In this document: in pieces, positions 7,647 through 36,152 of the stretch
Position numbering within the stretch: position 1 is the stretch's first letter
How the letters are laid out: each line of letters begins with the position of its first letter
Assembly: GCF_000827595.2 (NCBI RefSeq)
Contig: NZ_LN776180.1
Location: 1 to 64,000, forward strand
Direction of reading: 5' to 3'
Source: Necropsobacter massiliensis
Lineage (GTDB): Bacteria; Pseudomonadota; Gammaproteobacteria; Enterobacterales; Pasteurellaceae
DNA: 64,000 nucleotides
Position numbers and translations under genes: made by a program
The notes under the pieces: model-generated
Seen by the model: only the letters and a program-made list of their open reading frames with translations
Database searches by the model: none
Told to the model about the DNA's origin: nothing

Positions 7647-8595
7647 GTGCGACAAGTGTCGTGCTTACTGGGGTTAAATCCTTATATATCAAGGGTTTAG
7701 CTCAAGGGGAAAACAGTATTATTACTGTTTTCCCCGACTATTCAATACTACAATAGTGGTAATTGGGTAGCAGGCTAGAAAAGGAGCGTTGCTCAAGATC
7801 TAGTTCTAAGTTGGTAAAGGTAAATCGACCAACTCTAATAACAATAAGGTATGATCTTCACTCTGATGTACTTAATCTTGAAGTTATGGGATTAAGGAGA
7901 GTAGGAAAGCAAGATCCGTTGTTAGAAAGTTACTTCTTAGTTTATTTCCAAATAAAAGGGAATAAAGAGCAGCACAGCATACACTAATGTATATGCAAAT
8001 TGGCTTAGGGTATTTAAACCTCAGATTAGAGAATGCATTTACAAACCTACTATAAATAAAGCCCAGAGTTCCGTCAGCCTCTAGAAAACGGAACAGAACT
8101 AAGCACTGGTAATGCTTAGTGAGGAGAGGCGTATTTTTACCAATAAATTTTATCTTCACTAAGGGAAGTCTTCTACCGAAGCCCCATTTCAATTAAGTGG
8201 TTGAACCGTGTATTTGCTTGCGGAAATGAGTAAGCGATGTCGTTCGACCTGAATTCTACCAAGAAAACATCTAATATAAAGGACACCCTTGAACTATCCC
8301 AAATTTACCTTAGGGAGATTTTGAGTAAAAGTGAGAGATGTAGCGCCTTATAATTAGTATTACTATTGGTTGCGAACGGAGTTAGAAATAACGAAAGGTA
8401 AATTTATGAAGTATACGGCAAGGGCTTATTTAGTACTGGAATAGGAACTAACTTAGTTAAGTATGAGTAAGCTGTTATTACTATTGTTACAATTTATTTT
8501 GAAGTGGATATATGCTGTTACGGAAAGATAAATGAGTGTAACCTGTTATGTGACTAACAGTAACCTAGGGATAGCGCATTACTGACAACGGTTTT
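7647..8595 (+). ncRNA. Structured 5' segment of the intron, origin unclear
   Basis: About 950 nt without a credible gene but rich in perfect hairpins: CGAC-AAGT-GTCG at the 5' end, a 13-bp stem with TTAT loop (7707-7736), GTTGGT/ACCAAC (about 7810-7835), GTTCCGT/ACGGAAC (about 8065-8095) and CTAAGCA/TGCTTAG (about 8098-8120). Its end meets a second group II-like start, GTGTGGAGC (8596). Part of it (about 7852-7890, ATCTTCACT...) resembles the domain I text at about 8846-8885. It could be an expansion of domain I, or the remains of a second intron joined in tandem. No domain V is recognisable in it. Confidence 0.45.
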
Positions 8596-9256
8596 GTGTG
8601 GAGCTTCCTGACAATGCCCCCCGATAAGGTTATTAATATTGTGAGATATTAATAAAATACTCGAAACGACCATTGGGTTGAGGGGCTAGGTTGGATAGAA
8701 AGATAAACGTAAGTGAATAGTCGTAATTCTCGTTATGTAGAACAAGCCTACGGTCGCTATCGGCTTGAACCAAAAGGTATGCAGTGGGTTATCTCATTTT
8801 AGCCTTGGGATACGTCACCATAACACTGTCGGGAAACAGACTATATCTTCACTATTCGTGTAGTAATAATGGAACTTGGTAAACCTATATTTCCGCCTGA
8901 AAAGGCAGGCAAAGCGTAAGCAATGCTGTTGGGGGTGTAGGTAAGAGAGGTTAGAGAAAGCGAATGCTGTACTGTAATGGCGCAGATAGGGTGTGAAATA
9001 TAACCTAACCCGAAAGGGTGCAGACTTCTAACTGGTCTTTCATCGCAAGATGTCTGACTAATTCCTTAAAAGTTTAAACGGGACAAAGCGAGCGTTGGCT
9101 TGCTGATTAGAAATAATCAAACAAAACCAACGCAAGCACTCTTTATCCTTAGTGATAACAACTATTGGTAATGATAGCAACTCTTGAAAGTTTTCACAGA
9201 CCAGAAAGAGGAACTATCTGTTTACCAAGAAAACTTATCTCTAAACGGAGGTAAGT

Positions 9257-9930
9257 ATGAAAGAGCGGATTCATCATACTAAGAAATTAGTAAATAATCC
9301 AGCTCCAGCGACCCCGAACATATCAAAATGGCATTATATCGATTGGTATAAAGCAAATCGATATGTGAAAGGAATGCAGGTGCGGATTGCGAAGGCGACA
9401 CAGGAAAGCAATTGGCGTAGAGTAAAAAACCTACAAAGAATGCTGACCCACTCATTTTATGCAAAAGCATTAGCAGTAAGACGAGTGACTGAAAAGAGAA
9501 ATACTTTTGTTCAAATAGTACTCGAAATTGGATTTTTGGTACGGTAACCAATGATAAACAGGGCAAACTAATCCCAATAGATTTAATTTATTGTGGGTAC
9601 GTTAAAATTAAACGGCACCAAAAGGTAAAATCACAATACAAGCCATTTTTACCCGAATGGGAATTGTATGGGAAAAATCTTGTTCAAAAAAGTAGAATGT
9701 ATGATGAACAATCACACAGACGACAATGGCAAGTCTTGTACAAAGAGCAAAAAGGGAAATGTGTATTATGTGGTTTTCCAATTACAAAAGAAACGGGCTG
9801 GCACGATCACCATATTATTTACAAAGTGTATGGTGGAAAGGATACGCTAAACAATAGATGTTTGGTACACCCTGAGTGTCATCGTCAAATTCACCGCCTG
9901 AATTTGAAAGTAATGAAGCCGACTGCCTAG
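9257..9930 (+). pseudogene. Group II intron reverse transcriptase/maturase, internally deleted and frameshifted
   Basis: A strong ribosome site (GGAGG) precedes ATG 9257. The first about 80 residues match the N-terminus of bacterial intron proteins (WHYIDWYKANRYVKGMQVRI, then LQRML, AKALAVRRVTE: the RT-0 region). The frame then shifts near 9520-9530. The second frame, from about 9523 to 9930, carries the C-terminal part: RNWIFGTV, KRHQKVKSQYKPFLPEWELY, and an HNH endonuclease with CVLC, HDHHI, YGGKDTLNN and HPECHRQIH. RT motifs 1-7 and most of domain X, roughly 350 residues, are absent, so no active reverse transcriptase can be made. It lies in intron domain IV. Confidence 0.9.
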
Positions 9931-10042
9931 CAGTTAATAGAAAGGCTTGAGCTGTATGCAGAGAAATTTGCTTGTACAGTTCTTAGGGGGCTAAGCTGTA
10001 GCAATACAGCTTGGCTACCCGATTCAACTTTTTCTCATATTC

Positions 10043-12220: not shown

Positions 12221-12235
12221 TGAGAATAATTCTCA
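12221..12235 (+). promoter_or_regulatory. Candidate Fur box upstream of nrdD
   Basis: TGAGAAT-A-ATTCTCA is a perfect 7-1-7 palindrome, matching the Fur motif TGATAAT-N-ATTATCA at all but the two symmetrical G/C positions. It would make anaerobic reductase expression respond to iron. A nearly identical box lies at 34768-34782. Confidence 0.55.
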
Positions 12236-12389: not shown

Positions 12390-14513
12390 ATGGGCACATT
12401 TTTCGTAATCAAACGTGACGGCTCACGAATCGGATTTGAAATTCAGCGTATTATCAACGCCATAAAAAAAGCAGCACTCGCTGTCGGCATCAATGACGAC
12501 CGCTATTGTTACAGTATTGGTCAGCAGGTATGCGATGAAATTTTCGCGCATCATCAACAGGAAATCGACATCAGCCGTATTCAGCAAATTGTTGAAAATC
12601 ATCTGATGTCAAGCCAGTACCCGCAAATCGCCCGCGCGTATATCGAATACCGCCACGACAGAGATCTGGCGCGTGAAAAGCGCAGTAATCTGACCAAAGA
12701 GATTGAGGGATTAATTGAACAAAGCAATGTCGAACTGCTGAACGAAAACGCCAACAAAGACGCCAAAGTGATTCCTACTCAACGGGATTTGCTGGCGGGG
12801 ATCGTCGCCAAACATTACGCCAAACGCTATATTCTGCCGCGCGATGTGGTAGCGGCCCATGAAAAAGGCGAAATCCATTATCATGATCTAGACTATGCAC
12901 CGTTTTTCCCAATGTTCAATTGCATGCTGGTGGATTTAAAAGGCATGTTGACCAGCGGATTTAAAATGGGCAATGCGGAAATTGAACCGCCGAAATCCAT
13001 CGGCACCGCAACCGCAGTTACCGCGCAAATTATCGCGCAGGTTGCCAGCCATATTTACGGCGGCACGACAATTAACCGTATTGATGAAGTGCTGGCGCCT
13101 TATGTGCAGTTAAGTTATGAAAAACACTTAAAAACCGCCGCACTTTGGCAGATTCCGCAACCGGAAGCCTATGCCAAGGCGTTAATCGGAAAAGAATGTT
13201 TTGACGCCTTTCAATCGCTGGAATATGAGGTCAATACGCTGCACACCTCAAACGGTCAAACTCCGTTTGTCACCCTCGGTTTCGGGCTGGGTACCGGCTG
13301 GCAGGAACGGCTGATTCAGCAATCCATTTTGCGTAATCGCATTCGGGGATTAGGTAAAAACCATAAAACGCCGGTCTTCCCGAAATTGGTATTCACCATT
13401 AAAAACGGCGTGAACCATAGCAAAACCGATCCGAACTACGATATCAAACAGCTGGCGCTGGAATGTGCCTCTAAACGCATGTATCCAGATATTTTAAATT
13501 ATGATCAGGTGGTGAAAGTCACCGGTTCGTTCAAAGCGCCGATGGGCTGCCGCAGTTTCCTCGGCGCTTATCAAGAAAACGGCGAATATGTGCATGACGG
13601 GCGCAATAATCTGGGCGTGGTCAGTCTCAACCTGCCGCGTATCGCATTGGAAGCCAAGGGCGATGAACAGCGCTTTTACGATATTTTGGAACAGCGTCTG
13701 GCGCTGGCGAAAAAAGCGCTGATGACACGTATCGCCCGGCTAGAAAATACCAAAGCCCGAGTAGCGCCGATTCTGTATATGGAAGGCGCCTGCGGTGTGC
13801 GCCTGAAAGCCGATGACAATGTGGCGCAAATTTTCAAAAACGGACGCGCCTCAATTTCGCTGGGCTATATCGGTATCCATGAAACCATCAATGCGCTCTA
13901 TCATCACCATATTTATGACGATGAACAGCTGCGCCAAAAAGGGCTGAAAATCGTCGAACGGCTCAGCGAGGCAACTAAACAATGGCGGGCGGAAACCGGC
14001 TATGCGTTCAGTTTATATTCTACACCGAGCGAAAACCTGTGCGACCGTTTCTGCCGGCTGGATACGCGCCAGTTCGGCATTATCGACGGTGTGACGGACA
14101 AAGGTTATTACACCAACAGCTATCATTTAGATGTTGAGAAAAAAGTCAATCCTTACGACAAACTGGACTTTGAAATGCCTTATCCAGCATTAGCCAATGG
14201 CGGTTTTATCTGCTACGGCGAATATCCGAATATCCAGCATAATCTGAAAGCGCTGGAAGATGTGTGGGATTACAGCTATGCGCGCGTGCCTTATTACGGC
14301 ACGAACACGCCGATTGATGAATGCTACGAATGCGGCTTTACCGGCGAATTCGAGTGTACCAGCAAAGGCTTTACCTGTCCGAAATGCGGTAATCACGACA
14401 GCGAAAAAGTGTCGGTCACCCGCCGAGTCTGCGGTTATCTCGGTAGCCCGGACGCCAGACCGTTTAACGCCGGCAAGCAGGAAGAAGTCAAACGCCGGGT
14501 TAAACATATGTAA
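12390..14513 (+). CDS. nrdD: Anaerobic ribonucleoside-triphosphate reductase
   Basis: Reduces NTPs to dNTPs without oxygen by a glycyl radical mechanism. 707 residues. An ATP-cone allosteric domain occupies about residues 1-95 (starting VIKRDGSRIGFEI). The C-terminus has the four-cysteine zinc site (CYECGFTGEFEC and CPKCG) and the radical motif RRVCGYLGS, with Gly682 the expected radical site. GAGGT precedes the ATG. nrdG, encoding the activase, follows after 241 bp. NrdR boxes and Fur- and CRP-like sites lie upstream. Confidence 0.97.
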   Translation: MGTFFVIKRDGSRIGFEIQRIINAIKKAALAVGINDDRYCYSIGQQVCDEIFAHHQQEIDISRIQQIVENHLMSSQYPQIARAYIEYRHDRDLAREKRSNLTKEIEGLIEQSNVELLNENANKDAKVIPTQRDLLAGIVAKHYAKRYILPRDVVAAHEKGEIHYHDLDYAPFFPMFNCMLVDLKGMLTSGFKMGNAEIEPPKSIGTATAVTAQIIAQVASHIYGGTTINRIDEVLAPYVQLSYEKHLKTAALWQIPQPEAYAKALIGKECFDAFQSLEYEVNTLHTSNGQTPFVTLGFGLGTGWQERLIQQSILRNRIRGLGKNHKTPVFPKLVFTIKNGVNHSKTDPNYDIKQLALECASKRMYPDILNYDQVVKVTGSFKAPMGCRSFLGAYQENGEYVHDGRNNLGVVSLNLPRIALEAKGDEQRFYDILEQRLALAKKALMTRIARLENTKARVAPILYMEGACGVRLKADDNVAQIFKNGRASISLGYIGIHETINALYHHHIYDDEQLRQKGLKIVERLSEATKQWRAETGYAFSLYSTPSENLCDRFCRLDTRQFGIIDGVTDKGYYTNSYHLDVEKKVNPYDKLDFEMPYPALANGGFICYGEYPNIQHNLKALEDVWDYSYARVPYYGTNTPIDECYECGFTGEFECTSKGFTCPKCGNHDSEKVSVTRRVCGYLGSPDARPFNAGKQEEVKRRVKHM

Positions 14514-24557: not shown

Positions 24558-24632
24558 TGGTGGGTCGTGAAGGATTCGAACCTTCGACCAACGGATTAAG
24601 AGTCCGCTGCTCTACCACTAAGCTAACGACCC
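24558..24632 (-). tRNA. tRNA-Lys (anticodon CTT)
   Basis: 75 nt with encoded CCA. Cloverleaf is intact; the anticodon loop reads CTCTTAA, so anticodon CTT (reads AAG). It is nearly identical to the three neighbours except anticodon base 34 and the D-arm (AGCTTAGTGG, one base shorter, with a T-G pair closing the D stem). Last gene of the tRNA transcript. Confidence 0.9.
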
Positions 24633-24663
24633 ATATAATCTTAGGCGGATAGTTTCAACTAAT

Positions 24664-24739
24664 TGGTGGGTCGTGAAGGATTCGAACCTTCGACCAACGG
24701 ATTAAAAGTCCGCTGCTCTACCGACTGAGCTAACGACCC
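24664..24739 (-). tRNA. tRNA-Lys (anticodon TTT), copy 3
   Basis: 76 nt including CCA; anticodon loop CTTTTAA. Standard D-arm AGCTCAGTCGG. Identical by eye to the next two copies. Confidence 0.96.
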
Positions 24740-24770
24740 GAAAATATATTTAAGGAATATTACCGTTAAT

Positions 24771-24846
24771 TGGTGGGTCGTGAAGGATTCGAACCTTCGA
24801 CCAACGGATTAAAAGTCCGCTGCTCTACCGACTGAGCTAACGACCC
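24771..24846 (-). tRNA. tRNA-Lys (anticodon TTT), copy 2
   Basis: 76 nt including CCA, same sequence as its neighbours, separated by about 30-nt spacers that are themselves similar (GGAATRTTAC). Confidence 0.96.
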
Positions 24847-24877
24847 GTAAGTATATTTACGGAATGTTACGTTTGAA

Positions 24878-24953
24878 TGGTGGGTCGTGAAGGATTCGAA
24901 CCTTCGACCAACGGATTAAAAGTCCGCTGCTCTACCGACTGAGCTAACGACCC
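24878..24953 (-). tRNA. tRNA-Lys (anticodon TTT), copy 1
   Basis: 76 nt including CCA. First gene after the promoter of the cluster. Confidence 0.96.
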
Positions 24954-34004: not shown

Positions 34005-34544
34005 TTATTCCTCCAGCACCACTTTACCGATATAACCTAAATTACGGTAGCGTTGTGCATAATCAATGCCATAACCAACCACAAACTCATCAGGAATAGA
34101 AAATCCGACCCAATCCACCGGCACCTCCACCTCGCGCCGGGAAGGCTTATCCAACAGGGTACAGATCGCCAGCGATGCCGGTTCACGTAAATTTAAAATC
34201 TCACGCACTTTTTGCAAGGTATAACCGGTATCAATAATATCTTCCACAATCAAAACATGCTCGTGTTTAATATCGCCGTCCAGATCTTTGCTGATCTTCA
34301 CATCATGATTTGACGTCATACCCGAACCGTAGCTTGCGGTTGTCATAAATTCGATTTCCACCGGCAGCTGGATTTCGCGTACCAAATCCGCCATAAACAT
34401 AAAAGAACCGCGCAGCAGACCGACGATAATCACTTTATCCGCCCGTTTATGTCGGTAAAATTGCGTGATTTCACGTCCCAATTCCTGAATACGGGTTTTG
34501 ACCTCTTGCTGCGGAATTAAAATATCAACATGATGTTTTTTCAT
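34005..34544 (-). CDS. hpt: Hypoxanthine phosphoribosyltransferase
   Basis: Salvages hypoxanthine to IMP with PRPP. 179 residues. The PRPP-binding motif [14 protein letters not shown] (about residues 98-111) is intact, and the family's flexible loop (TTASYGSGM) is present. Single gene on the minus strand, downstream of the small RNA candidate and followed by the bidirectional terminator. Confidence 0.95.
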
Positions 34545-34602
34545 TACTATCCCTTTATCAATAAGTTATCTCTGTTCTACGGATGAGCGCGCGTATTGTA
34601 GC

Positions 34603-34733
34603 AAAAAAAAAGCTGAAGTATAAACTCCAGCTTTTCAAATACCCTAACGAATTTACTTTCTACTCTACTTTTGTTTGGAGTATCCTAAAAATGACCTCTA
34701 CCCAATCACTTTTAACCGCAATACTTAACAAAC
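34603..34733 (-). ncRNA. Candidate Fur-regulated small RNA
   Basis: A self-contained transcription unit between pmbA and hpt. Minus strand: promoter with -35 TTGACA (34762-34767), 16-bp spacer, -10 TAAAAT (34740-34745); a Fur-like palindrome abuts the -35 (34768-34782). The transcript of about 130 nt ends at a hairpin (34610-34618 with 34625-34633, one mismatch) followed by eight or nine Us. No convincing open frame exists on that strand. The design (Fur box, strong promoter, U-rich terminator suited to Hfq) is that of RyhB or the H. influenzae HrrF RNA; orthology is not shown here. Confidence 0.72.
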
Positions 34734-34739
34734 GCGCTC

Positions 34740-34782
34740 ATTTTAACAAAATCGTCATTATTGTCAATAAGAATTATTCTCA
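34740..34782 (-). promoter_or_regulatory. Promoter and Fur box of the small RNA
   Basis: TGAGAAT-A-ATTCTTA (minus strand, 34768-34782) is a 7-1-7 Fur-type palindrome with one imperfect position. It directly adjoins a near-consensus promoter (TTGACA, 16 bp, TAAAAT), so Fur binding should block RNA polymerase when iron is plentiful. Confidence 0.7.
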
Positions 34783-34796
34783 TTTATGAAATTAAT

Positions 34797-36152
34797 TTAA
34801 TTGCCCGAAATTTTCATTGTCGCCAGTAATACCGAGCCGGTTTGAATATTCGAGCGGTGCTCAATATCATCCGCCACCGCAATCATATTACGCAGCATAT
34901 CCGTCAGCTGACCGGCAATTGTAATTTCAGCCACCGGATATTGAATCTCGCCGTTTTCCACCCAAAAACCGCTTGCGCCACGGGAATAATCGCCGGTCAC
35001 CGGATTAACCCCTTGTCCCATTAACTCGGTAACCAGCAAACCGCGCCCCATTCGGCGTAAAAGTGCGGTCAATCCGCCACTTAAATTCGGCTTGACCAAC
35101 CAATTATGAATCCCACCGGCATGACCGGTAGTCTGCATTCCCAGTTTGCGCGCACTGTAACTGGTCAGCAAATATGTCTGCAAGATCCCCTGTGTAATAA
35201 TCTCGCGCGAAACCGTTTTAACGCCTTCGCTGTCAAAAGGAGATGATGCCAGCTGCCCGATTAAGTGCGGTCGCTCGCTTAACTGAAACCAATCCGGCAA
35301 AATCTGTTTACCCAACTGATCTAACAAAAAGCTGGCTTTACGATACAAGCTGCCGCCGCTTATCGCCGCCGCCAAATGCCCGAATAAACCGGTCGCCACA
35401 TCATTTAAAAACACCACCGGCACTTCCTGCGTTGCGATTTTCTGCGGTTGCAAACGCGCCAGGGTTTTCTGCGCGCAGTGAGTTCCAACCCAATCCGCGC
35501 TTTCCAGCCGGTGTATATTACGCGCCACCGTATATTCATAATCACGCTCCTGCTGCGCACCATGGGCGGCGATCATAGAACAAGATAACGAATAGCGGCT
35601 CGACAAATAACTTTGCAGCATGCCATAACTGTTACCATACACCCTGACGCCGGTATGAGAATTAAACGCCGCACCTTCGCTGTTTACGATCCGCTTATCA
35701 TAATCCAGCGCGCGCTGTTCCGTTCGCAGTGCCAGCTCCGCCGCGCGCTCCACATCAATATCCGCGGGATGATACAATTCTAGCTCCGGCGCCTCAAAAG
35801 CCATTAATTCCCGCGCGGCTAAGCCTGCACAATCATCAGGAGAGGTATATTTCGCAATTGCCAACGCCGCTTCCACCGCACTTTTAATTGCGCGGTGACT
35901 TAAATCGGAAGTTGAGGCATTGCCTTTTTGCTGCCCCAGATATACCGAAATGCCCAGCGCACCATCATTATTAAACTCCACATTTTCAATTTCCTGCAAA
36001 CGGGCGGAGACTGACAGCCCGCTGACTTTCGTTACCGATACTTCCGCGCTGGCACCGGCTTTGCGTGCCGTATCAAGTGCATATTCCACCGCCTCGCGCA
36101 ATGCTTGTTCTTGCTGTTTTAAAAGTGCGGTCGAATTTTGTTGATTTTCCAT
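34797..36152 (-). CDS. pmbA: Metalloprotease PmbA (TldE)
   Basis: Partner of TldD in a cytoplasmic metalloprotease that matures microcin peptides and degrades CcdA in E. coli. 451 residues, full length. PmbA-type features include [20 protein letters not shown] near the N-terminus and the C-terminal [20 protein letters not shown]. tldD is not in the window. Divergent from darP. Confidence 0.95.

Follow-up and report, generated by a model that had tools for sequence, protein, structure and literature searches.

A locus between pmbA and hpt in Necropsobacter massiliensis is predicted to encode the Fur-regulated small RNA HrrF

We report that the gap between pmbA and hpt in Necropsobacter massiliensis almost certainly (with a probability of roughly 95%) carries the gene (hrrF) for HrrF, a small RNA (sRNA) of the Pasteurellaceae that is regulated by Fur; the assignment comes from sequence comparison, and transcription of the locus is predicted. 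The locus lies in a 64,000-nt stretch of contig NZ_LN776180.1 (positions 1 to 64,000 of the forward strand), which we refer to as the window. The predicted RNA is ~131 nt long and is placed on the minus strand at 34603..34735, where it has a match to the Rfam HrrF model (RF02728), and its predicted 5′ end is at 34732-34735. It is very probably an ordinary further member of a known family and not a new RNA class.

HrrF of nontypeable H. influenzae (86-028NP) was described by Santana et al. (2014; PMC4144887) as a Fur-repressed, iron-responsive RNA of ~97 nt, with a length of ~126 nt given for more distant, non-Haemophilus relatives. A homolog of the H. influenzae sRNA in A. actinomycetemcomitans is reported to be induced by iron restriction and to belong to the direct Fur regulon (PMC5156373), and H. 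influenzae is reported to express HrrF on epithelial cells (PMC12306180). The Rfam HrrF entry is mentioned in PMC5753348, and a study of A. pleuropneumoniae sRNAs cites the HrrF paper, with no HrrF in the accessible portion of its text (PMC4986893). For Necropsobacter itself, no sRNA is described in the open-access literature surveyed on HrrF and on Necropsobacter genomes, the latter represented by titles and the starts of abstracts. The present analysis places HrrF in a genus that the default Rfam threshold misses, and provides a closer description of the family, including its frozen letters, its covarying helices, and the lineages without a detectable copy.

Identity of the locus

The RF02728 model aligns to positions 34605-34735 over its entire length (model positions 1-116 of 116) with 73.6 bits and an E-value of 2.2e-13, and the alignment accommodates an 11-nt insertion within the variable 5′ half of the RNA. 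Because this score is below the gathering score of 77, which is an annotation threshold and not a biological trait, a default Rfam scan omits the window hrrF; the homologs in two sister genomes score 72.4 and 72.6 bits, also below 77. When the model was run against the complete genome of the same organism it gave this single match, and 14 control genomes gave none. A search for plasmid matches to the stretch returned none.

Upstream of the predicted RNA is a 451-aa ORF (34797..36152, minus strand) with matches in 139/140 genomes of the family, and downstream is a 179-aa ORF (34005..34544, minus strand) with matches in 138/140. We take these neighbours to be pmbA and hpt, respectively, from the gene arrangement of H. 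influenzae. That arrangement is described in PMC4144887, where hrrF sits between the two genes; pmbA, hrrF and hpt follow one another on the minus strand of the window, and the gap is the same one. The original prediction had left it undecided whether the RNA is a counterpart of HrrF or a new one, and had proposed an alignment to HrrF. With the end-to-end RF02728 match, the shared gap, a core that is 26/27 identical to that of H. influenzae (L053, probably strain HI-5290), and the joint conservation of core and Fur box, the first possibility appears to hold, and a new RNA is very unlikely.

Beyond the gap and the core, the likeness to H. influenzae HrrF extends to a Fur box beside the promoter, the distance to the transcription start, a 5′ hairpin and a terminator, as far as the H. 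influenzae RNA is described in PMC4144887. The differences are that the window RNA is longer (~131 nt vs ~97 nt), owing to a more extended apical part of its 5′ hairpin, and that a single Fur block was recognised at the locus whereas three are predicted for H. influenzae hrrF. H. influenzae is also reported to have a 3′ extended form, hrrFL.

In outline the locus also recalls RyhB of E. coli, which is likewise Fur-repressed, short and ended by a terminator, and one may postulate that an RNA of the RyhB/PrrF/NrrF type arose independently in this gap, unrelated to HrrF but built to the same design of Fur box, short RNA and terminator. We give this scenario next to no credence. An Rfam scan of this stretch at E-values up to 10 ranked HrrF first and reported no RyhB match, while PrrF reached only 13.6 bits, over the promoter; Santana et al. 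report that HrrF is without similarity to RyhB, PrrF or NrrF (PMC4144887). The full-length HrrF match and the shared core speak strongly against an independent origin and for HrrF. RyhB and HrrF may differ in a further respect: the original prediction had labelled the RNA Hfq-type, a label that is doubtful here, as the stability of HrrF in H. influenzae is reported to be independent of Hfq (PMC4144887). Hfq is encoded in the Necropsobacter genome. Iron- and Fur-regulated RNAs of the same bacterial family also include JA01-JA04 of A. actinomycetemcomitans (RF02729-RF02732), as far as these are described; they are separate Rfam families, none of which matched the window at gathering score.

Promoter and Fur box

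A sigma-70 type promoter of the form TTGACA-16-TAAAAT, with a TG before the -10, is present on the minus strand at 34740..34767 and matches the consensus at 11/12 positions; its -35 (TTGACA) occupies 34762-34767 and its -10 (TAAAAT) 34740-34745, with a 16-bp spacer. Touching it at 34768-34782, on the same strand, is a 7-1-7 Fur-type box, TGAGAATAATTCTTA, in which we count 6/7 arm pairs by eye. This pairing of palindrome and promoter had been claimed in the original prediction, and both elements are present on the minus strand where it placed them. The pmbA stop lies ~52 bp before the hrrF -10. In H. influenzae, hrrF transcription starts 63-65 bp past the pmbA stop and Fur binds upstream (PMC4144887); the same distance past the window pmbA stop corresponds to 34732-34734, where the promoter predicts a start. 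Among relatives, the script-readable hrrF stretches have a -10 at a spacing of 16-17.

Box, promoter and terminator are each weak evidence when taken singly. The pattern TGATAATNATTATCA, with at most three mismatches, has 10 matches in the window compared with 6.3 +/- 2.65 in shuffles, and the 7-1-7 box alone was rejected as evidence, being near chance level in the window. Within 1.5 kb, promoter-like sites number 5, with 2.6 +/- 1.9 expected from shuffles, and terminator-like sites 2, with 1.8 +/- 1.5 expected. The window has a single copy of the 23-nt block AATGAGAATAATTCTTATTGACA and 0/100 shuffles have one, a result that speaks to uniqueness only, the pattern having been copied from the window. 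It is the recurrence of the wider block that exceeds chance: the conserved Fur box and -35 block, AAATGAGAATAATTCTTATTGACA (34762..34785, minus strand), is found with at least 19/24 letters in 63/101 stretches read, and its occurrence is above chance because it recurs at the same position after pmbA across the family.

From the predicted start, ~131 nt without a convincing gene lead to a 13-bp hairpin with nine Ts, which bears out the earlier description of about 130 nt followed by a hairpin and a run of Us. No ATG-led ORF of at least 25 aa was found on the minus strand inside 34603-34733, and a coding reading of hrrF was rejected on this ground. A TTG-led ORF of 26 aa (34558-34638) overlaps the end of hrrF, and the opposite strand holds a 68-aa ORF at 34583-34789. 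A Fur-family protein is encoded in the Necropsobacter genome, as in 10/10 genomes tested, those without hrrF included.

RNA structure and conserved core

The predicted fold of the window RNA has an energy of -32.8 kcal/mol, compared with -21.3 +/- 3.1 for shuffled sequences (z -3.75; 0/200 shuffles as good), and the folds of the RNAs of seven relatives have z-values from -3.05 to -5.85. In these predictions, 5′ hairpins and a terminator hairpin stand on either side of a mostly unpaired core. The 5′ hairpin (34673..34733, minus strand) has a GUUUG...CAAAC closing stem and an apical part whose length and sequence vary across the family; the core, GTAGAGTAGAAAGTAAATTCGTTAGGGTA, is nearly invariant in the alignment (34640..34668, minus strand); and the Rho-independent terminator (34603..34636, minus strand) consists of a 13-bp stem within the hairpin 34607-34636 and nine Ts that extend to 34603. 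A small hairpin of 4 or 5 pairs close to the core's 3′ end appears in most minimum-energy folds and not in all centroids.

The terminator covaries: two-sided changes are seen at 10/10 predicted pairs of the 30-sequence consensus, and 0 to 4/30 sequences break a given pair or are gapped. RNAalifold, run on the 30-sequence alignment, did not report the 5′ stem. One pair of this stem is C-G in 29 and T-A in 9 of 38 readable stretches (L033 is ambiguous), an alternation that lends the predicted stem modest support, given that the pair was read via sequence anchors that select stretches with the expected flanking motifs and that kinship is uncorrected.

In an alignment of core and terminator from 40 sequences, nine columns of the core do not vary at all, and conservation is at least 90% in most of its other columns. 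The core is 27/27 identical in the sisters L012 and L013, whose pmbA proteins are 90 and 96% identical to that of the window, and in L023 (probably A. actinomycetemcomitans DSM 8324). Drift of the Fur box or the terminator in close relatives had been named as an observation that would count against the locus; both sisters keep box, core and terminator. The predominantly single-stranded core is probably the region that pairs with mRNAs, judging from the predicted folds. Two candidate pairing stretches had been suggested originally, and they fare differently: AGTAGAGTAGAAAG falls within the conserved core, whereas GGGTAGAGG falls in the variable apical part of the 5′ hairpin and is not supported as a pairing region.

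Distribution across the Pasteurellaceae and beyond

At E <= 0.001, RF02728 matched 97/140 family genomes, with 62 above the cut-off and 35/97 without any match above it; the filters of this survey lose some weak matches, and some of the weakest matches are not near pmbA and may be due to chance. One of the genomes surveyed, G005, is incomplete. We read the stretches that follow pmbA or surround a displaced match in 99 genomes (the window and 98 of the other 139), which gave 101 stretches, and called a Fur block where at least 19/24 letters agreed. Fur block and core were present together in 60/101 stretches by script and in 61 by eye, the core of L030 having been missed by the script. Two stretches (L042 and L043) contain the core with Fur blocks of 17 and 16/24, which is shuffle level, and a Fur-like repeat can be seen by eye in the spacer; two more contain the Fur block without a normal core, which is degraded in L022 and diverged in L076. 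Neither element was found in 36/101, including both G083 stretches and the pmbA flank of G131. Fur box and core largely travel together across the family.

In L022 (genome G013), box and promoter are intact after pmbA and the core is degraded, which could represent a remnant of hrrF or a new Fur-controlled RNA. In G131, hrrF and its Fur box (L097) are on a different contig from pmbA, probably as a moved copy.

We also built a model, R1, from 40 core and terminator sequences, and ran it on 48 genomes, of which 43 have no RF02728 match; the window itself scores 87.3 bits by construction, as it belongs to the training set. Among the 43 Rfam-negative genomes, R1 recovered hrrF clearly in G132 and weakly in G097 (E 0.01), in both cases after pmbA, while 13 further genomes had only chance-like matches (E 0.016-0.09) and 28 had none. 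Across 394 genomes of the order, R1 matched 22 Pasteurellaceae and one outsider, G266 (43 bits, E 5e-4); both R1 searches used stricter filters, at which weak matches are lost. The G266 match was rejected as HrrF, as it consists of the end of a short ORF and a terminator, and the best Fur block within 2 kb has 16/24 letters, which is shuffle level. An exact 26-base core pattern was found in 41 records of a species collection, 40 of which have Pasteurellaceae-looking names. From these searches, HrrF appears to be confined to the Pasteurellaceae. The 41st record, L123, is titled Pseudomonas stutzeri NCTC11607, contains a Pasteurellaceae hrrF core and is probably mislabelled; it probably corresponds to G128, a genome assigned to the Pasteurellaceae by the genome search.

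Within the family, hrrF went undetected in some lineages, partly inside hrrF-bearing genera (g14 and g38), by loss or by strong divergence. Such lineages are natural comparisons for the role of HrrF in iron economy, and several of the HrrF targets were found puzzling by Santana et al. (PMC4144887). This pattern also bears on whether the window copy could be decaying, that is, kept by recent common descent and unused. The absence of hrrF from some lineages and the degraded core that accompanies box and promoter in G013 (L022) would fit such decay; in the window, however, none of the four elements (box, promoter, core and terminator) is damaged, and all three Necropsobacter genomes have the same core, the pmbA proteins of the other two being 90 and 96% identical to that of the window. 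We consider decay of the window copy extremely improbable, and a maintained hrrF remains the preferred reading.

Terminator and hpt promoter

Directly abutting the hrrF terminator is an extended -10, TGCTACAAT (34595..34603, minus strand), which is the probable hpt promoter. Defined by the pattern TGNTANN[AT]T or TTGTANNAT, an extended -10 follows the terminator directly in 34/49 hrrF stretches that have hpt within 200 bp, compared with 2/13 that do not. Two genomes, G041 and G043 (L040 and L041), are without box and core but still have, ahead of hpt, a hairpin with Ts and a -10, an arrangement that looks like an internal deletion of hrrF. These observations suggest that the terminator region may also serve the hpt promoter.

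A terminator between the two genes with an extended -10 immediately after it, and the persistence of hairpin and -10 before hpt in G041 and G043, would also be expected if there were no free sRNA at all, and the stretch were instead the 3′ end of pmbA joined to an hpt leader, the terminator ending pmbA and the Fur box tuning hpt by read-through. The prospects of this explanation are slim. It does not account for a near-consensus promoter past the pmbA stop or for a conserved core outside the terminator, and a separate ~97-nt RNA is reported from H. influenzae (PMC4144887). Moreover, in each of the five g2 genomes read, pmbA is still followed by box, core and terminator, with hpt absent from the stretch; G003 gave no hpt match at all at the limit used. 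These observations are better accommodated by a free-standing HrrF.

Proposed mechanism and targets

By analogy with H. influenzae, Fur binding, an iron response and target regulation would most likely apply at this locus as well, the conserved box adding to the analogy in the case of Fur. Iron-loaded Fur would bind the box overlapping the -35 and block RNA polymerase; as iron falls, Fur would leave, and an RNA of ~131 nt ending at the hairpin would be made. Its mostly single-stranded core would then most likely pair with mRNAs and change their stability or translation. In H. influenzae, HrrF is reported to lower modABC and to raise asnA, asnC and nrdB, and a predicted HrrF-modB contact is mentioned (PMC4144887, which also gives HrrF nt 29-64 as 100% conserved).

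In the Necropsobacter genome, the modB start pairs with the core at -18.3 kcal/mol, and 1/55 background starts is as low; for the starts of modA, asnA and asnC, 15, 41 and 52 of 55 background starts, respectively, pair at least as well, where asnC was identified by eye and the asnA and asnC pairings were computed with correct orientation in this genome only. Orientation-corrected duplex energies at the modA and modB starts of up to 30 genomes revealed no conserved pairing. The modB starts of the sisters reach -12.7 and -13.4, whereas those of the hrrF-less G103 and G137 reach -18.6 and -19.0 kcal/mol, and the mean modB energy is -13.9 in 20 genomes with hrrF vs -16.8 in 4 without, modB having been assigned by position, as the long ORF that follows modA, and not by homology, and found in 24/30. 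Because the sisters pair poorly and hrrF-less genomes pair better, these data provide no evidence of a conserved modB site. A near-perfect complement to 18 core bases occurs at one place in the genome besides hrrF, with 3 mismatches, compared with 7 places for a reversed control. The original prediction had called for target prediction; carried out at modA and modB in up to 30 genomes and at asnA and asnC of Necropsobacter, it yielded no conserved or remarkable pairing.

One may speculate that the core is a protein docking site or an RNA sponge and not an ordinary antisense seed, and that the terminator is tied to the hpt promoter; we regard this combination as unlikely. If the core had such a role, its near-invariance and the absence of conserved modA and modB pairing would both be explained, and if the terminator were tied to the hpt promoter, loss of hrrF would leave a terminator-promoter piece.

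Other features of the window

A perfect 7-1-7 palindrome, TGAGAATAATTCTCA, is located at 12221-12235, in the gap that precedes the ORF 12390-14513, and is a possible Fur site; the ORF resembles an anaerobic ribonucleotide reductase, a name assigned by eye. Group II intron RNA matches are found on the plus strand at 8542-10023, comprising RF02012 (8542-8685) and RF00029 (9947-10023), and four evenly spaced tRNA genes stand in a row on the minus strand at 24561-24953.
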